Assembly (NCBI GenBank): GCA_910573755.1
Contig: CAJTBO010000001.1
Coordinates: forward strand, 124,001 to 188,000
DNA: 64,000 bases
Direction: 5' to 3'
Origin: Lachnospiraceae bacterium
GTDB taxonomy: Bacteria > Bacillota > Clostridia > Lachnospirales > Lachnospiraceae
A model generated the notes under the pieces. It saw only the letters and a program-made list of their open reading frames with translations, did not search any database and had not been told where the DNA came from. This document shows, in pieces, positions 2,685 to 18,343 of this stretch (positions are counted from its first letter, which is position 1; every line of letters starts with the position of its first letter). Made by a program: the position numbers and the translations under genes.

Positions 2685-5537
<2,853 letters not shown>

Positions 5538-7923: not shown

Positions 7924-9225
7924 TCATCCTGCCTCCGGAAGAAATTCCGTTACGTCCATCACAATCTCCAGCAGTTCTTTTTTAAAGCTTTCCTTCTCTT
8001 CCATGTTTGGCAAAACTTCTTTCATATATGCTTCAATTTCCGGCACGCCGTCCGCTATGATACCTCTATTATCAGCATAAACATCCATTGTTATGATTTC
8101 TTTTGCATGTCCCATGAGCTTTGATACCGCTTTCGGATTGAATGCCTCTTTCAGCAGGAGCGTACAGTATGTGCTGCGCAGATCATGCCAGCGGATGTTC
8201 GGCAGGCCATTTTCAGCAAGAAGCTGTTTATAATACCTGCAATGAAATCCTTTGCTCCTCGCCCTGCCATAGGTGGAACAACAGATATAGTCCAGATCCT
8301 GAAACTCTTCCTTTCTTCGGTTTCTGTTTTTCTCATACACCTGCCGTTCCTTTAAGATCGCATCAAAGACATAATCAGGAATCGGAATTTCTCTGTAACT
8401 GGATTTTGTCTTTAATCCTACCTCCTGTTTCGTAAAAGTTTTTGGAGCAAAGTCTTCTTTTGCTGTGTTATGTACCCTCCCTAACTGGCGTTCTACTTTT
8501 AAGGTGCGGTTGATATAATCCACGTCCGAATATTTCACACCATTTATCTCGGATCTCCGAAGCCCCATCAGAACATTAAACATCACCTGCATATGGATCG
8601 GGGTATCTTTGCTCTTTTCCAGCAAAACCTGAATCTGCTCCATAGTCAGCGTTTTCTGTGTATCAATATTCCTGGTTCTAAATCCTGATTTCTGCTGCGG
8701 CTTTTCTGCTTTGGGAAGTCCTATTCCATCCACCGGACTTGCCTGGATCACTTTGTTCGTTACCGCATAACGAAAAGAGACATTCATGATTGTTTTTACC
8801 AGCTCTGCTATCGACCTCGAATAGCCTGCCTTGGTATTAAACAATTTTTGAACATCTCCACGGGTAACATCCATCATTTTTTTCTTACCCAGAATGGGAA
8901 TGATGTGATTCTTTACTATTCCGCAATAACCATAGTAGGTTTCGTAACTGTCAGTACGCTTTTTAAGGTCCGTTTCAAGCCAGAATATCATAAAATCAGA
9001 CACATTGACCTTTGTATATACAACAAACGTACCATTATATAATTCTGCGATTGTCTTCTCTCTTGCCTTATTTGCTTCTTTCTCTGTTTTGAATCCGGAC
9101 TTCTGCTGTGGTTTTTCGCTTCCGTCCGGATATCTCAGGAATACCCTGTAGCCGAAGCCGGAGCGCACAGGCATTACCTGTGACACTCTCCAATCGACAT
9201 AATTTTTCAAACTCAGATCTAACAT
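7924..9225 (-). CDS. Tyrosine recombinase / phage-type integrase
   Basis: 433-residue site-specific recombinase. Order: an N-terminal arm-binding-type region (to about 60), a SAM-like core-binding domain (about 65-165), and the catalytic domain. Catalytic residues visible are Arg in 'LMGLRRSE', the HDLR box in 'IRWHDLRSTY', a later His in 'LMGHAKE' and the nucleophile Tyr in 'TMDVYAD', so it looks active. ATG follows AGGGAGTG. An odd feature is a near-identical short repeat, EKPQQKSGF(K/R)T, around residues 37-47 and again near 173-184. It sits at the uvrB-side edge of an island with TA and IS genes, as expected for an integrating element. No att repeats could be identified. Confidence 0.9.
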   Translation of the reverse strand: MLDLSLKNYVDWRVSQVMPVRSGFGYRVFLRYPDGSEKPQQKSGFKTEKEANKAREKTIAELYNGTFVVYTKVNVSDFMIFWLETDLKKRTDSYETYYGYCGIVKNHIIPILGKKKMMDVTRGDVQKLFNTKAGYSRSIAELVKTIMNVSFRYAVTNKVIQASPVDGIGLPKAEKPQQKSGFRTRNIDTQKTLTMEQIQVLLEKSKDTPIHMQVMFNVLMGLRRSEINGVKYSDVDYINRTLKVERQLGRVHNTAKEDFAPKTFTKQEVGLKTKSSYREIPIPDYVFDAILKERQVYEKNRNRRKEEFQDLDYICCSTYGRARSKGFHCRYYKQLLAENGLPNIRWHDLRSTYCTLLLKEAFNPKAVSKLMGHAKEIITMDVYADNRGIIADGVPEIEAYMKEVLPNMEEKESFKKELLEIVMDVTEFLPEAG

Positions 9226-10608: not shown

Positions 10609-11277
10609 ATGAACAATATAGGATACAGGAATTTATTGATCCAATATATAGACAGACAGGAAGCCGATCAGCCGATTTTGACAACTCAGATCACGCAGTA
10701 TGTTGCAAGGGAAACCGGTTTGGATGAAGCAGACGTAAAAAAAGCGGTTAATGTGAATATGGCCAGACTGGAAAGGGCAGACAAGATCCTGCGGATAGAA
10801 AAGGGCGTCTATTGTAAAAAGATTAAAACGGCATTTGGATATTATACACCCAACAGAGAAACCTTATTCTGCAGGCAGCTATTATATGATGAGGATGATG
10901 TGATCGGATATGAAACAGGGTTGTCTGTGCTGAACCGTTTAGGTCTGGTGTCCCAGATGCCCAAAAGGAGATGCATTGCGACAAACCGGTATACCAAAAG
11001 AGTACCCGCCGGTATGCAGGTTGAGATAAAAAAACCTTCTGTAAACGTAAACCGATCCAATTACCGTTATCTCCAGATTCTGGATGTGATAAGAGATTTG
11101 GATATTGCCCCGGTTGATGCCGCAAAACCGGAAGAACTGTTAAAGCGGACGGTAAAAACATTAGAGCTTGACACAGATGTCCTGATCTATATGGCAAGGA
11201 AATTTTACAATCCGAAAATACTGGTCAAAACAATTGATATTATGCTGAGAGGGCTTTATGAAACTGCACAGGGATAA
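10609..11277 (+). CDS. AbiEi-like antitoxin / transcriptional regulator (DUF6088 type)
   Basis: 222 residues. The N-terminal 70 residues form a winged-helix-like DNA-binding region (ITQYVARETGLDEADVKKAVNVNMARLERADKILRIEKGVYCKK), followed by the AbiEi-type core around 'GYETGLSVLNRLGLVSQMPKRRCIATNRY'. In type IV toxin-antitoxin systems this partner blocks the nucleotidyltransferase toxin without binding it tightly and represses the operon. ATG follows GAAGGGAG. Its stop overlaps the next gene by 20 bp, implying coupled translation. Some such pairs give phage defence by abortive infection; that role here is inferred from family only. Confidence 0.8.
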   Translation: MNNIGYRNLLIQYIDRQEADQPILTTQITQYVARETGLDEADVKKAVNVNMARLERADKILRIEKGVYCKKIKTAFGYYTPNRETLFCRQLLYDEDDVIGYETGLSVLNRLGLVSQMPKRRCIATNRYTKRVPAGMQVEIKKPSVNVNRSNYRYLQILDVIRDLDIAPVDAAKPEELLKRTVKTLELDTDVLIYMARKFYNPKILVKTIDIMLRGLYETAQG

Positions 11278-12220
11278 ATATTCATTTTTAAATATCATCG
11301 GGCTTATTCATAGTGTCACTGGAATAAGGGAAGATATACTGGAGAAGGACTATTATGTTACTCTTCTCTTAAAGGAGTTATCAGAAAAACAAGAGACACT
11401 TCCCGCATACTTTAAAGGAGGAACGGCTTTATATAAGGCTCAGAAAAGTATCCGTCGTTTTTCTGAAGACATTGATCTGACAATTTGTATTGATAACTGT
11501 AGCGGGAGCCAGGCAAAAAAGCATTTGGAAACCGCAACTAAAAAATATATCTCGTTGCCCAGGACTTCCAGAAAGGAACTGGAAGATGACAGAAAAGGAA
11601 GCATTACAGCAGTCTATGATTACATGCCGTTGGTGACAGTGGATACGGATGACCCTCTCCAGAGGTTTGGTTATGTCAAAGTGGAGGGGACTTCGTTTAC
11701 TGTAAGCGAACCTTTTTCTACTTTGGAAATTGAACCTGTCATATACACATATGCCACAGAAGAACAGAGATCTATCCTGCGGGAACAGTTCGGGGTAATG
11801 CCGTTCCCGATAAAAACGATCCGTCTGGAAAGGATATTTGCAGATAAAATATTCGCAGCTGAATTTTATTATGAGCGTGGCATGTATTTTGATGTTGCAA
11901 AGCATATCTATGATGTGAGTGTTATGCTGGATCTGCAGCCAATTCAGGATATGCTTGGGAATACTGGTCTGTTTCTTGAAATGTCTGAATATAAGAGACT
12001 GGAAGAAACACGGAGGACGGGCAGTGACCTGGCAGACAGGAAATTCCCTGACTTTAAGATATTCTATGATATCTCTGATAATACAGCTCTCAAAGACGCT
12101 TATCAGAATATGCAAAAGAATTATGTTTTTTCGGAGAAAGATTTACTGACATTTGAATTTGTTATAAGTCAATGGAAGAAGTTACAGGAAGTTTTAAATG
12201 ATATAGAAAACGGAAAATAG
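11258..12220 (+). CDS. AbiEii/AbiGii-family nucleotidyltransferase toxin
   Basis: 320-residue toxin of the DUF1814 nucleotidyltransferase family. The catalytic signature is present near residue 50: 'FKGGTALYKAQKSIRRFSEDIDL', combining the GG-S/T loop with the DxD metal-binding pair. Members transfer nucleotides, for example to tRNA acceptor ends, and stop growth when unneutralised. The start lies inside the end of the antitoxin gene, as usual. Length and motifs look intact. Tandem tRNA genes lie 1 kb downstream; a functional link is not shown. Confidence 0.85.
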   Translation: MKLHRDKYSFLNIIGLIHSVTGIREDILEKDYYVTLLLKELSEKQETLPAYFKGGTALYKAQKSIRRFSEDIDLTICIDNCSGSQAKKHLETATKKYISLPRTSRKELEDDRKGSITAVYDYMPLVTVDTDDPLQRFGYVKVEGTSFTVSEPFSTLEIEPVIYTYATEEQRSILREQFGVMPFPIKTIRLERIFADKIFAAEFYYERGMYFDVAKHIYDVSVMLDLQPIQDMLGNTGLFLEMSEYKRLEETRRTGSDLADRKFPDFKIFYDISDNTALKDAYQNMQKNYVFSEKDLLTFEFVISQWKKLQEVLNDIENGK

Positions 12221-13529: not shown

Positions 13530-14207
13530 TCACTCCTTATCATTTTCTTCCTCGAAATCTGCATCTGGTAAAGGGGCCTCTCTGAAATCTGCTATGTAAA
13601 AATCCGCCGCCTGCTCCATCTGTACCCTGTACCTGGCAGAATATTTGTCATATACAGCGCCTACCAGCATTCCGGCCTGTTTTGCGCTTTTGACAGCCGG
13701 CAGAACATCCTCGAAGACCAGATAGTGCTGTGGGGCTGCCCCTAACCTCTGCGCCGCAAGTTCAAATATATCCGGATACTCTTTTCCACGTTTTACTTCA
13801 TCGGTAGAACAGAGAATATCAAACAATTCCAAAACAGAATTATGTTCAAGGCAGGGAAGGAACAATTCTCCCGGCAGTCCTGTGGCAACCGCCAGTTTCA
13901 TGCCGCGTTTTTTAAGCTCGATAAGATATTCCAGAGCATATGGCGACAGTTTCACATGATGGGCATATTCATAAACGGCCATCTCATTCCATTCCCTGAT
14001 GATATCCTCCGATTTTTCGGAAAGTCCAAACATATCTATTGTATACTGCGCCGCTTCCTCAAAGCTGCGGGCACAGATTTCAGCCACATAATCTGTCGGA
14101 ACCGTCAGTCCACGCTTCTGAAGAAAACAAATATCAATCTGCTCCCAGACATCCATCGAATCAAGCAGTGTACCATCCAGGTCAAAAATCACGGCTTCAA
14201 ACCTCAT
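13530..14207 (-). CDS. HAD-superfamily phosphatase (beta-phosphoglucomutase-like)
   Basis: 225 residues from the ATG at 14207, preceded by GAGGAGG; an upstream in-frame start lies within the preceding gene. HAD motifs are complete: nucleophile 'DLDGTLLDS' at residue 8, motif II Thr in 'VATGLPGE' near 105, Lys in 'EVKRGKEYPD' near 140 and acidic motif IV 'FEDVLPAV' near 163. The helical cap between motifs I and II indicates subclass I phosphatases acting on small sugar phosphates or nucleotides. It was the last gene of the TetR-CPBP-HAD operon before the IS insertion; the start overlaps the CPBP stop by 11 bp. Confidence 0.85.
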   Translation of the reverse strand: MRFEAVIFDLDGTLLDSMDVWEQIDICFLQKRGLTVPTDYVAEICARSFEEAAQYTIDMFGLSEKSEDIIREWNEMAVYEYAHHVKLSPYALEYLIELKKRGMKLAVATGLPGELFLPCLEHNSVLELFDILCSTDEVKRGKEYPDIFELAAQRLGAAPQHYLVFEDVLPAVKSAKQAGMLVGAVYDKYSARYRVQMEQAADFYIADFREAPLPDADFEEENDKE

Positions 14208-14884
14208 ATTTGTCCTCCTCACATAAAAATGCGGCTGAAATATCAAACAGGAAATGAACTGCCATACACAAATACAAGGAACCTGTACTGATATACAAAA
14301 ATCCGAACAATATACCCAGAAGTCCTGTTTTTATCACGCCTTTGATACCTTGATAAAAATGGGCTGCCTCGAAGCAGACACCTGCCAGAGTTGCCAGAAG
14401 AAACGGCGATAGTTCCGGAAAAATTCTCCTCAAAACATACAACAAAAATCCCCTGAATACAATCTCTTCACAGATACCTGCTGCCAATGCCGTTGCAACA
14501 AAATAACTTTTCTCCCGTCTGGTTCTTGGAATAAGCCCGTTTACAACACGGCCATAGACTTTCCCTGAATGTGTTTTTTCCTCTATCTGTTTCGAAACAG
14601 AACCCCTGTAGGACGGATTCATCAAAAACACAGCTATTTGAAAAATAAATACCGCACTCAGCAGGCCGCATAGAATCCATGTTCCAAACACCAGATATCT
14701 ATGGCTTCCCTGCAAAAAGCGGATCGGGCGGAAGCCTGTTTCCTCCAGAGTAGCCGGTCCCATAACAATAAGTAACATAACAACACCCCCGGAAACCACA
14801 TTCCACAGAAAGGAAAACCGGTATCTTTGTATCCGTTTTTCTTCCGACAGCTCATTCCCTTTTAATTTTTCTATCGCCGCATAC
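14197..14884 (-). pseudogene. CPBP (CAAX protease/bacteriocin-processing) family gene, 3' part
   Basis: C-terminal part of a multi-pass membrane protease. The two diagnostic motifs are here: 'CEEIVFRGFLLYVLRR' (EExxxR) and 'CFEAAHFYQG' (FxxxH), with a third 'HFLFDISAA'. The matching 5' part is at 17496-17717, and both ends share an identical 159-bp stretch, so one gene was split by the IS1634-type element. The family makes prenyl-protein or bacteriocin-related proteases and immunity proteins; the substrate is unknown. Expression of this piece alone is unlikely to be functional since the first helix is lost. Confidence 0.85.
14726..14884. repeat. Left copy of a 159-bp target-site duplication
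   Basis: Identical, base for base where I compared, to 17500-17658. Both copies lie in the same frame of the CPBP gene and directly abut the IS1634-type element, so they are the insertion duplication. The IS1634 family is known for long, variable target duplications. Confidence 0.85.
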
Positions 14885-14986
14885 TCAAGTTTTGAAGCAA
14901 AAACGGCGTAACCCTTATAAACACTGGGCTGCGCCGATTTCTCTGTATAGCGTAATGGGAACTTTTTTGAAGTAATAAAAATATTT

Positions 14987-16798
14987 TTAGTAGCGTAAAA
15001 GCCGCTGTATTTCCTGACGGGTTCTGTATTTATTATCTAGAGTCATATCAAATGCTTTCCCTATAGACTTTAGTATTTCATCAAAATATGTGAATTGGTA
15101 GTTGTTCTTATCAAGCGGAATGCAGCAGTAGTCCTTAAGGGATTTTATGATCCTGCCCACAGGATATTTATTATCAAGCTTTGCCTGAAGGAGCCTTATA
15201 AGGACAAGTGCCGTAAAGCAGGTCGCAAAGTGGGCATCGATATGATTATTGGTCCATACGAAAACAGGCCTTGAATCAAACTCGGATTTTGATATCTTAA
15301 AGGTATCTTCTATCCGGGCCAGCCCCCGGTAGATTTCCCTCATTTCCATATCCGGCATCTTTAACTCACTTGTAACTATAGAATAGTATCCGTCATATTT
15401 TTCTTCTTCCTTTATCTTTTCAAGATCCAGTTCCAGTGCTTTGCCATCGACGATCTCCCCGGTATCTTTGCTGAAAGAGATATTCAGGACATAAGCGGCT
15501 GAACCGGCAGAAGTCACTTTATCATATTTTTTGGGGTGTTTGATCAGATCTTTTGCCCGCTGTATCATTACTTCCCTGTCGGCTTTTTGTTTTTTCGCAT
15601 ATTTTTCGGAATAGTAAGCCATTTGCTTCTGGTCTATGGATACTGTTTTCTTGGATTTCTTTTTCTGCCCCGGCTTTGTTACATTCACATGCAGCTCTTT
15701 AGGATGTATCCTTGATTTATGTTTAAAAGTTATTTCTTTCCCATCATCATCCACGATCTTATCCGTAACGTAGTTCCCGCCCAGTACCCAGGTTTTAAAT
15801 TCTGCGTCTGCGCCCCTGACAGACTGACCGTAAACGTATCCATCCCTTTCATTTATCTCTCCTTTGTTATCCCCGTTAAGGTAATAGATGTTGTCGGATG
15901 TATTTAATCCCCTGTCTGCGACAAATATGATACGGCTGTCCGAAAATTCATTTTTTATACGGTTTATGATCGAGCGCATATGAACCTTTTCGGATTCGTT
16001 TCCGGGAAACAGGTCAAAAGCAAGAGGGATTCCCCTTCTGTCCATTAACAGTCCCATTTCAACGATAGGATCAGGACGATGGTTCTTTTCAGGCCCGCGT
16101 TTCCTGTATTTAGCCGGAACAGGATTTCCATTTTTATCGGCAGGATTGCCGTCATCATCAAGGATGTCCATGTCAGAGCGCCCGATATCAAAGTAGTAAT
16201 TCGTACAGTCAAAGTAAGAAACAGATAAATCCCTTTCGCATATCTTCCCGGAATGGTCATAGATCCATTTCTGGAGAGACACGTTATTCTCACAAATGAT
16301 ATCTAAAGCATGGTAGACATCATCAAGGGAAAAATCCCCAAAGTCTTCAAAATAAAACCCCCTGTCATCGAAAGTGCCTTTCTTTGAGGCCGGCATAAGT
16401 ATCCGGGAGAATACAAGCAGCCTGAATATCTTGTCAACGCTGTATCTGATGGAAAGATTTCTGGTCTTCCAGTTCCAGAACTTATCGAGTTCAAGCTGTT
16501 TATAAAGGGCTTTCAAAACACCATAGCCTGCATTTTTAACGTCATCAGTATCCGTAGTCATTTTTTCTGTGGAATCAATAGTAAAAATATGCGACCTGCT
16601 TCTTTTTTTCTCCTTAGTCATTTCAGCGGCTTTGCTGGTAAAATAAGCAACAGGATCATCATACTCTTTTTTCAGGGCCTCCAGATAACCAAGGCTTTGC
16701 ACTGTGCGGGTTCTGCTTTGTTTTGATGCGCTGTCATAGTAACTTTCCTGAATTGCCAGGTAGATTCCCTGCGGCCGCTTGATTTTTCTTAAATACAT
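14987..16798 (-). CDS. IS1634-family DDE transposase
   Basis: 603 residues, intact. N-terminal 'MYLRKIKRPQGIYLAIQESYYD' and 'RTVQSLGYLEAL' are characteristic of the family's DNA-binding start. Catalytic-core landmarks are 'SYFDCTNYYFD' near residue 195 (first Asp), 'IIFVADRGLNTSDNIYYL' near 290 (second Asp) and 'RIEDTFKISKSEFDSRPVFVW' near 510 (Glu). It excises and inserts the element through a DDE mechanism. The ATG is preceded by GGGGGGATGACAG, which lies inside the end of the kinase-like gene; the two frames overlap by 10 bp, so translation should be coupled. Confidence 0.9.
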   Translation of the reverse strand: MYLRKIKRPQGIYLAIQESYYDSASKQSRTRTVQSLGYLEALKKEYDDPVAYFTSKAAEMTKEKKRSRSHIFTIDSTEKMTTDTDDVKNAGYGVLKALYKQLELDKFWNWKTRNLSIRYSVDKIFRLLVFSRILMPASKKGTFDDRGFYFEDFGDFSLDDVYHALDIICENNVSLQKWIYDHSGKICERDLSVSYFDCTNYYFDIGRSDMDILDDDGNPADKNGNPVPAKYRKRGPEKNHRPDPIVEMGLLMDRRGIPLAFDLFPGNESEKVHMRSIINRIKNEFSDSRIIFVADRGLNTSDNIYYLNGDNKGEINERDGYVYGQSVRGADAEFKTWVLGGNYVTDKIVDDDGKEITFKHKSRIHPKELHVNVTKPGQKKKSKKTVSIDQKQMAYYSEKYAKKQKADREVMIQRAKDLIKHPKKYDKVTSAGSAAYVLNISFSKDTGEIVDGKALELDLEKIKEEEKYDGYYSIVTSELKMPDMEMREIYRGLARIEDTFKISKSEFDSRPVFVWTNNHIDAHFATCFTALVLIRLLQAKLDNKYPVGRIIKSLKDYCCIPLDKNNYQFTYFDEILKSIGKAFDMTLDNKYRTRQEIQRLLRY

Positions 16799-17349
16799 CT
16801 GTCATCCCCCCTGTCGTCACAAAGATGGAACTGGTCCATCATTTCTGCTGCAGCTTCTTCAGGAGTCATTCCTGAGACATCAAATATGTTTTTTATATCA
16901 GAATAAACTGCCCCATACCAGTTGAGGTCTTTCCGGATCTCTTCAAGATAGTGATCCCTGTGCCGGTTTTTATAATCATCATCTTTGTAGACAACATCAT
17001 TTTCGTCGCTGAAAATCAGCCGGTCAAAAATATTTTCTGCTGAATCTGTGAGTACAATGCTTATCACATCAGGGGAAGAAAAAAGGCATCTGATACCGTT
17101 GATGTACGACAGGGGAGTAACGGCAATGACCTTGTTACCACGCTTACATATTAAATGATTAAGGATACGGCATCGTATTGCGTCACGCTTCATAAGGTTT
17201 TCTGTAGAAACAAATTCCTCAAGGGTAGTATTTTGGTCTTTTTTGACTTCATCATTAAGATCATAAAAGGAATAGCCGAGAAGGCCAGCCAGAAGCCAGC
17301 CTGATACGGACTTGCCAACATTTGATACGCCAAACAAAAGGATATTCAT
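16789..17349 (-). CDS. P-loop kinase-like passenger protein of the IS1634 element
   Basis: 186 residues from the ATG at 17349, which follows GGGAGGT. The start 'MNILLFGVSNVGKSVSGWLLAGLLGYSFYDLNDEVKK' has a Walker A motif (GVSNVGKS, residues 7-14) and a short Asp-rich segment after it, an arrangement like shikimate or other small-molecule kinases. A lid-like basic stretch (KNRHRDHY) lies near 130. Family guess: AAA_18/shikimate-kinase fold; the substrate is unknown. It overlaps the transposase start by 10 bp inside the IS boundaries, so it moves with the element. It could be a transposition cofactor like the IstB-type ATPases, or a cargo kinase. Confidence 0.7.
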   Translation of the reverse strand: MNILLFGVSNVGKSVSGWLLAGLLGYSFYDLNDEVKKDQNTTLEEFVSTENLMKRDAIRCRILNHLICKRGNKVIAVTPLSYINGIRCLFSSPDVISIVLTDSAENIFDRLIFSDENDVVYKDDDYKNRHRDHYLEEIRKDLNWYGAVYSDIKNIFDVSGMTPEEAAAEMMDQFHLCDDRGDDRCI

Positions 17350-17495
17350 GTTCGTTACCTCCCACAAAGTAGTCTATAAATATATAATACCATATTCCAT
17401 TAGATTGCGCTATATATAAAAAACAAAATGTTGACAAAAAATTTCCAGCATCCATAATAGATTGCTGGATCATTTCAAAATATAAACTTCAAAAC

Positions 17496-17717
17496 TCAGG
17501 GGCGGAAGCCTGTTTCCTCCAGAGTAGCCGGTCCCATAACAATAAGTAACATAACAACACCCCCGGAAACCACATTCCACAGAAAGGAAAACCGGTATCT
17601 TTGTATCCGTTTTTCTTCCGACAGCTCATTCCCTTTTAATTTTTCTATCGCCGCATACCCTGTATATGCCGTTATAATAAGATAGATGATTATGCCCACA
17701 AGTAAAATGATATCCAT
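17496..17717 (-). pseudogene. CPBP family gene, 5' part
   Basis: Begins at the ATG at 17717 (after GGGGAGAA) and encodes one N-terminal helix ('MDIILLVGIIIYLIITAYTG') plus the segment repeated at 14726-14884, then meets a TGA created at the IS end (17496). Joined to the 14197-14884 piece it gives one normal-length CPBP membrane protein. It is 23 bp downstream of the tetR-like gene, in the same operon. Confidence 0.8.
17500..17658. repeat. Right copy of the 159-bp target-site duplication
   Basis: Pairs with 14726-14884. Sequence diverges immediately outside: IS end on the left, and the unique remainder of the CPBP gene on the right. Confidence 0.85.
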
Positions 17718-17740
17718 TGTTCTTCTCCCCACAATGCAGC

Positions 17741-18343
17741 TTACTTCAAATAAGCAATTCTCCACTGCCCGACTCGTTTCAAAAAATCCCTTTCCAGGCC
17801 GTCCGGGTCCAGCTTCCCGACGGATAGCATCTGCCAGAGACTCTGAAACAGATAGCTGTCAATCTCCTCCAGCAGCATTCCCACGTCAATACCCGGGCGG
17901 AACACGGAAAGATCCACGGCCCCCAGCAGCTTGCCCGCTGCATCTTCATATACTTCTTTATATGACTTCCCGGTTGCCTCCCTGATTTCCAAAGGCTCCG
18001 CAAAAAGAGCCCGTATGGAAAATAAATATTCATCAGGGACCGTTCTCATAAACTCACACCTTGCCAGGACCTTCCGGGTCATGGCCTCAAAGAAATCTGA
18101 CGTTTCCCTGTAATACTTCAGCTCTATTTCATTTGATATCCTGTCGATATTCTCCCAGAGGTATAAATACAACTCTTTTTTATTCTTGAAATAATGGAAC
18201 AACAGGGACTTTGATATGTCACCGGCATCCGCAATCTTGGATGTGGATGCATTTTTGTAATTATTATGGGCAAACACCACATATGCTGCTTTTATGATCC
18301 GTTCCTGCTTTTCCGATGGCAGCTCAAAAAATTTCCCGTTCAT
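17741..18343 (-). CDS. TetR-family transcriptional regulator (copy 1)
   Basis: 200 residues from the ATG at 18343, preceded by GGGAGG. The N-terminal helix-turn-helix is clear ('IIKAAYVVFAHNNYKNASTSKIADAGDISKSLLFHYFKNKKELYLYL'); the ligand-binding region starts near residue 60. It is very similar to the gene at 26690-27295, including the ribosome binding site. It follows an ABC ATPase and permease and precedes the CPBP gene, so it likely controls that transporter operon in response to an exported or toxic ligand. The ligand is unknown. Confidence 0.9.
   Translation of the reverse strand: MNGKFFELPSEKQERIIKAAYVVFAHNNYKNASTSKIADAGDISKSLLFHYFKNKKELYLYLWENIDRISNEIELKYYRETSDFFEAMTRKVLARCEFMRTVPDEYLFSIRALFAEPLEIREATGKSYKEVYEDAAGKLLGAVDLSVFRPGIDVGMLLEEIDSYLFQSLWQMLSVGKLDPDGLERDFLKRVGQWRIAYLK

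Follow-up and report, generated by a model that had tools for sequence, protein, structure and literature searches.

We analysed a stretch of 64,000 nucleotides (hereafter the window) from contig CAJTBO010000001.1 of a Lachnospiraceae bacterium, which holds an insertion sequence (IS) of the IS1634 family with a second gene beside its transposase gene. Measured C to C of its inverted ends, the element extends from 14884 to 17499 (2616 bp) and is bracketed by two identical direct repeats of 159 bp each; counted in this way, one base is common to end and repeat. The second gene encodes a shikimate-kinase-like P-loop protein, for short the kinase, and lies upstream of the transposase gene within the inverted ends. 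This is a real, well-bounded IS1634 element, and the second gene is probably a passenger. Its features are:

14726..14884, target-site duplication copy 1, identical to 17500-17658
14884..14897, plus strand, terminal inverted repeat downstream of the transposase, CTCAAGTTTTGAAG; the loci L003, L046, L011 and L026 have this end with 0-2 mismatches
14987..16798, minus strand, IS1634-family DDE transposase, 603 aa (open reading frame and family profile)
16673..16798, minus strand, transposase codons 1-42, the sequence of which tracks kinase presence (identity comparison)
16789..17349, minus strand, probable passenger gene, 186-aa shikimate-kinase-like P-loop protein (open reading frame from ATG, Pfam SKI)
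16806..16812, minus strand, ribosome-binding-like AGGGGGG of the transposase, a G-rich run within the kinase gene
17384..17392, minus strand, putative extended -10 promoter-like site TGGTATTAT, from conservation
17444..17469, minus strand, hairpin then T-run near the end, terminator-like and inward-facing (folding of leaders, mixed support)
17487..17499, minus strand, terminal inverted repeat on the promoter side, CTGAGTTTTGAAG
17500..17658, target-site duplication copy 2, identical to 14726-14884

The element and its two genes

The transposase matches the NCBIfam model of IS1634 transposases, NF033559 (E 8.7e-97, 325 bits, cut-off 100), as well as Pfam DDE_Tnp_1 (25.7 bits, cut-off 23). Both inverted ends, CTGAGTTTTGAAG and CTCAAGTTTTGAAG, start with C, as does the family end consensus C-----YT given in excerpts of PMC2266710. 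The target duplications are long and variable, as in IS1634 and IS1549. Exact lengths are 159 bp in the window, 113 bp at L003 and 125 bp at L046 (137 bp with 4 mismatches), and the repeat at L034 measures 95 bp up to the contig end, or about 151 bp if it reaches the element. Contrary to these long duplications, just 6 duplicated bp adjoin the ends at L064; at L063 the contig stops at the IS. The original prediction of an IS1634 element bounded by 159-bp duplications, with a P-loop kinase-like gene inside its ends, is borne out.

In the window the element splits a CAAX-protease-like (Rce1-like) gene (14200-14799 and 17499-17765; E 5.6e-22 for the longer part). The duplication is long, so that the two parts have a stretch in common, and the downstream part still holds an open frame of 200 aa. 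Among nine genomes of the genus the flank 14200-14884 matched only the window's own genome, and no empty site was demonstrable.

The kinase protein begins MNILLFGVSNVGKS and scores above the gathering threshold of Pfam SKI (E 3.3e-7, 31 bits versus 22.1). Its best score against the NCBIfam shikimate-kinase equivalogs is 30 bits at a cut-off of 204. Among solved structures, a profile of the kinase family finds shikimate kinases (best 2pt5, E 1e-11), mainly over residues 1-75. Invariant in 17 aligned rows are G7, V11-G12-K13 of the Walker A motif, F28-Y29-D30 and Arg55. The second Asp of the D-x-D motif has a role in shikimate kinase; residue 32 is Asp in 16/16 other aligned rows and Asn in the window kinase, and given Asn32 this copy may be altered. 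Compared to shikimate kinases (2pt5, 1kag), the window protein is thus alike in Walker A, the FYD-x-D region and the Pfam SKI match, and differs in the match being mainly to residues 1-75, in scores far under the NCBIfam cut-offs and in Asn32. Shikimate kinases also have a glycine-rich stretch, which is not evident in the kinase alignment, the alignment being uncertain there. The protein is probably a shikimate-kinase-like P-loop protein and not a shikimate kinase. In agreement with the original prediction, which had denied it AAA+ features, none of the AAA+ Pfam families matched the kinase at cut-off, the only hit being AAA_18 (E 0.016, under its cut-off).

Searches of collections of defence and mobile genes gave little. 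The best match in a PADLOC scan of five proteins had E 0.0067. PHROGs returned no match up to E 0.1 for the window kinase and weak ones only for its relative at L044 (best E 0.0005, 'ATPase'). A phage or plasmid origin of the kinase was rejected upon finding no match in phage and plasmid collections at E 1e-5, and a pattern scan confirmed no kinase in viral contigs.

As originally described, the open reading frames of kinase and transposase overlap by 10 bp (16789-16798, ATGTATTTAA), and the ribosome-binding-like run of the transposase lies inside the kinase gene. A ribosome-binding-like sequence within the kinase 3' end is present in 5/5 junctions (window, L034, L046, L031, L033). The overlap is not general: in the last four the transposase ATG lies a few bases past the kinase stop. 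Upstream, TGnTA occurs in 11/11 aligned leaders and TGnTATAAT in 7/11. When seven leaders were folded singly, the hairpin had z-scores of -3.2 (L003), -2.0 (window and L063) and about 0 (L046 and L011); a consensus scan listed neither the hairpin nor the -10-like site, and no conclusion was drawn from a covariation check of the hairpin, in which fixed columns matched just part of the alignment. The same kind of end and leader (end, T-run, TGnTA) is found with the kinase (window, L034, L046, L011, L050, L062) and without it (L003, L063, L064). The kinase therefore appears to have been inserted between promoter and transposase.

Relatives with and without the kinase

A pattern-based scan of a genome collection of 84,980 species gave 35 loci. 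The order end, promoter region, kinase, transposase, end recurs in Butyrivibrio proteoclasticus P18 (L034), with both genes intact, and in a Clostridia metagenome-assembled genome (MAG; L046). Because of this recurrence the window arrangement is not a product of chance. Two further Butyrivibrio loci (L050, L062) have end, leader and kinase as far as their contigs reach, and the relic L031 consists of IS end, promoter, an intact 182-aa kinase and about 12 transposase codons, followed by another gene. At L034 some 300 extra bases with an apparent long inverted repeat (8365-8750, by eye) separate the transposase stop from the IS end, perhaps a small nested element.

Members of the family also occur as solo genes. 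L028 (Parablautia) encodes a kinase 80% identical to that of the window and retains an IS-type leader, with 82.7% identity over 640 bp of leader and gene. The solo kinases L030 (63%) and L032 (59%) fall in the range of 57-63% identity to the window's, L029 is solo on a contig that begins at the gene, and there are more distant solo genes too. In two genera the solo kinase (L037, L045; also L010, L012) is followed by a gene for a SWIM zinc-finger protein (Pfam SWIM E 1.7e-6 for L037).

For a count we took places with at least 40% identity that cover at least 80 residues, run into a contig end or show visible decay. L009, L010 and L012 coincide with L028, L037 and L045, respectively, and L036 and L037 hold the same protein. 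This leaves 27 places: 18 in L028-L046 (L036/L037 as one), L050, L051, L062, the window, L011, L026 and L093-L095; L047-L049 (33-35%) and L052-L061 (short or distant) were excluded. An IS1634 transposase or end is present at 10/27 (window, L011, L026, L031, L033, L034, L035, L046, L050, L062). Two further places bear weak traces, L028 (leader only) and L094, where the kinase adjoins a 44-bp fragment weakly resembling the L035-type transposase described below (79.5%, E 0.003). By a rough estimate, IS1634 being present in about 12% of sampled genomes, chance would place one within 6 kb of a locus in about 1/1000 cases.

Close relatives lacking the kinase were found as well. In the same genome, the kinase-free L003 encodes a transposase 86% identical to the window's in an intact 603-aa frame; its ends are of the same kind and its repeat, 113 bp long, is exact. 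The transposases of L063 (genome G220) and L064 (G051) are 67% identical to the window's, with intact open frames and again no kinase. Matches to IS1634 at E 1e-40 or better were present in 36/299 genomes of the family; loci with flanks of up to 1.5 kb were fetched for part of them (L063-L091), and among these only G208 gave kinase matches. The close subfamily is a small sample, carriers being about as many as non-carriers among the fetched loci. A degraded copy, L089 (G135), was dropped as kinase-free evidence, its deletion spanning the expected kinase position. Eight other genomes of the genus, some of them incomplete, contained no match to the transposase (E 1e-100) or the kinase (E 1e-15). 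At L003 the IS lies between two very similar genes (139-1134 and 3554-4525), the second with a weak Transposase_31/YhgA-like match; by eye, a third stretch near 4640 looks like the duplicated sequence, the IS-adjoining copies being exact and the third diverged.

The original prediction had proposed a transposition partner or target-choice factor. As an obligatory one, it is not supported in view of L003, L063 and L064, intact without the kinase, and of the solo occurrence of the family (L028, L030, L032). It had also named what would speak against it, namely that most close relatives lack the gene and that the same protein exists as a free gene. Close relatives without the gene and free genes do exist, but that most relatives lack it is not shown in the close subfamily.

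The kinase family is found in a second type of IS1634 element, L035 (Lachnospiraceae MAG RGIG3012). Its 578-aa transposase (NF033559 E 1.9e-75) shares 23% identity with that of the window over 290 residues. Behind it come a 78-aa gene and then a kinase gene of this family (49% identity to the window kinase), and all three lie within inverted ends CTTAACTTCCAG. L035 is an independent association of the kinase family with IS1634. Transposases of the L035 type (E 1e-60 or better) occur in 17/299 family genomes at 18 places, none of which has a kinase in the DNA examined. A plausible second end was recognised at 8/18 (L098, L099, L100, L102, L104, L107, L113, L114), with a gene between the position of the 78-aa gene and the end in 6/8 and none in 2/8 (L100, L107). 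L103 and L106 have a gene in the slot position and no recognised end, and the remaining eight places are uninformative. The slot near the right end is filled by different small genes in different genomes:

L098, 89 aa
L099, 72 aa
L102, PRiA4_ORF3 protein (E 9.5e-24)
L104, about 181 aa
L113, 73 aa
L114, 118 aa, degraded copy

Pfam named only one of the slot genes, NCBIfam matched none, and PADLOC gave no match up to E 0.01 for the six. The cleanest swap is L035/L098, which are 93.7% identical over 2111 bp, continue with unrelated genes and close with a 30-bp end that is 93% identical. Relatives of slot genes lie near solo kinases: next to L038 there is one related to the gene of L103 (46% over 181 aa), some 5 kb from L036 one related to the gene of L104 (78% over 95 aa), and L095 adjoins a PRiA4_ORF3 gene.

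Elsewhere in the window, an AbiEii-type nucleotidyltransferase gene (11258-12220; Pfam E 1.1e-21) is a possible part of a type IV toxin-antitoxin system.

History of the kinase gene and alternative readings

In a tree of 25 proteins, six window-type IS-borne or relic kinases group with the solo kinases L028, L029, L030, L032 and L039 (support 89/89, unstarred), the window joining L028 at 98/89 and L031 joining L032 at 100/99. With this support for the clade, a single capture is no more than likely; the corresponding history is that of a gene captured once, which then spread with the IS and left solo remnants. The statement that all IS kinases form one clade was dropped, as the group test compares labelled rows only, and 17 rows carried no label.

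The start of the transposase differs in its affinities from the body. Over residues 112-603 the window transposase is 92% identical to that of kinase-free L003 and 69% to that of kinase-bearing L034. In residues 1-42 it shares 54% with L003 and 83-93% with L034 (83%), L046 and L033. In this segment the four carriers are 81-95% identical mutually and 37-59% to five non-carriers (L003, L063, L064, L096, and L097, for which just 294 bp upstream make the kinase lack uncertain); L031 (12 residues) was excluded from these ranges. L003 and L063 share 78% here. At the DNA level, the first 225 bp of window and L003 are 51-59% identical, and what follows mostly 76-92%. Besides the window, the carrier-type N-terminus (at least 80%) occurs, among the loci examined, only in L046, L033, L034 and an 11-residue piece of L031. 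The N-terminus tracks the kinase while the body matches L003, so that kinase and transposase start look like one cassette, exchanged as a unit.

We regard it as probable that the element is a transporter IS, i.e. an IS1634-family insertion sequence carrying one passenger gene. As in such ISs, the extra gene lies inside the ends of a single IS. As to whether it is unrelated to transposition, the kinase is absent from intact close relatives, yet linked to the transposase N-terminus. These comparisons suggest that the kinase is a passenger that can be gained and lost and is not required for jumping; the cargo kinase, already an alternative in the original prediction, is the reading that the evidence favours. 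The transposase alone would mobilise the 2.6-kb unit via its ends and produce the long target duplications, and the kinase would be transcribed from the IS promoter, ahead of the transposase. The kinase may have entered the IS lineage once, from a solo family in Clostridia, and then spread with the IS. In the window, the cassette of kinase and transposase N-terminus would have reached an L003-like backbone by recombination within the first ~75 transposase codons. Least certain of all, the protein could be an ATP-dependent small-molecule kinase that helps host or element and hence is sometimes kept after transposase loss.

Several observations weigh against the transporter reading. Our sample holds few members of the close subfamily, and they differ in whether the kinase is present. 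Nor is the kinase kept in all cases: L046 has frameshifts in kinase and transposase alike, the two degraded copies of G208 (L011, L026) have a truncated kinase, and in the Fusibacter relic L033 the kinase lacks its first residues and the transposase is internally deleted. Support is weak for the clade that unites IS-borne with solo kinases. Ratios of nonsynonymous to synonymous substitution rates (dN/dS) of 0.22 (window-L028 kinase) and 0.12 (L031-L032 kinase), next to 0.11 for the window-L003 transposases, speak for the transporter reading, but they are pairwise and the kinase values mix IS-borne and solo branches, so that selection is not datable to after transposase loss. Residues 1-42 of the carriers are more alike than the body (69% for window/L034), which could mean coupling. 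Finally, a kinase gene that stands first and holds the ribosome-binding-like site of the transposase is unusual for mere cargo.

The last two observations would suit a transposition helper or regulator (of activity, target choice or control) that acts via the co-travelling transposase N-terminus. The kinase is the first gene behind the inferred IS promoter, the ribosome-binding-like site lies within it in every junction, no examined locus has a carrier-type N-terminus without the kinase, and the same rare kinase family occurs in two distant IS1634 types. We nevertheless hold a helper to be unlikely, as intact kinase-free elements exist in the same subfamily, one of them with a long repeat in the same genome, solo kinases stand without any transposase nearby, end variants are (by eye) not sorted by kinase presence, and no AAA+ Pfam family matches at cut-off. 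The link with the N-terminus is equally expected from simple recombination: going downstream from the kinase, shared sequence begins with the transposase start, and recombination in this first shared coding stretch suffices to explain the cassette. Conceivably, though we doubt it, the kinase and the first ~42 transposase residues are an exchangeable control module, with a small-molecule kinase tying IS1634 transposition to the state of the cell; this, if true, would account for the recruitment of one rare kinase family by two distant IS1634 lineages and for the N-terminus moving together with it. Functional coupling of kinase and transposase is unlikely.

Low pairwise dN/dS, recurrent recruitment and the solo kinases near relatives of slot genes (L038, L036, L095) could also point to a gene selected on the element, protecting it or the host cell as a defence, addiction or regulatory trait. 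The solo kinase L044 lies among genes that we take, by eye, to be of restriction-modification type. However, the PADLOC and PHROGs results given above lend no help to this idea, nor do the phage, plasmid and viral searches, and the element has no partner gene for a toxin-antitoxin pair; we consider a protective role quite improbable. That the kinase is an ordinary host gene caught between two repeats, outside the element proper, would agree with the existence of free relatives, but is very improbable in view of its position within inverted ends and an exact duplication, the same order in other genera, and the eight other genomes of the genus, in which neither gene was matched at the thresholds used, some of these genomes being incomplete.

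Comparison with known systems

The transporter reading extends passenger-carrying insertion sequences to the IS1634 family. Natural pairs of close relatives differing mainly in their cargo (window/L003, L035/L098) make it testable how simple ISs capture or swap single genes, and whether those genes affect transposition. It also points to a way in which orphan genes could enter Clostridia and then outlast the element when it decays.

IstB of IS21 and TnsC of Tn7 are AAA+ proteins needed for transposition. The window element is like these systems in having a gene with an ATP-binding motif beside the transposase gene, and unlike them in that no AAA+ family matches its kinase at cut-off and the intact close relatives L003, L063 and L064 lack the gene. 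An IstB analogue as obligatory helper was rejected in view of these kinase-free relatives.

The element resembles IS1634 and IS1549 in transposase family (NF033559), C-starting ends and long variable target duplications, which in excerpts of PMC2266710 are reported as 8-514 bp for these two. It differs by its second gene and by its length of 2616 bp, compared to 1500-2000 bp, with duplications of 5-6 bp, tabulated there for the family. A thermophile IS1634 element has 6-bp repeats (excerpt of PMC8024623).

'Transporter IS' is an accepted term for ISs with passenger genes (excerpts of PMC9330008 and PMC3129680). In searches of open-access literature, which did not include ISfinder, no single IS1634 element with a passenger was found, the only IS1634 cargo there being that of the composite transposon Tn6097 / ISPfe2, in which two IS copies flank the cargo (excerpt of PMC3281130). 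Tn6097 is like the window element in that IS1634 moves other genes, and unlike it in that the window cargo lies inside a single IS. The IS231 group of the IS4 family likewise has passenger DNA between left end and transposase gene (excerpts of PMC2266710). The window element differs from it in IS family and in its cassette, which extends into the transposase N-terminus, and the second IS1634 type differs in using a downstream slot.

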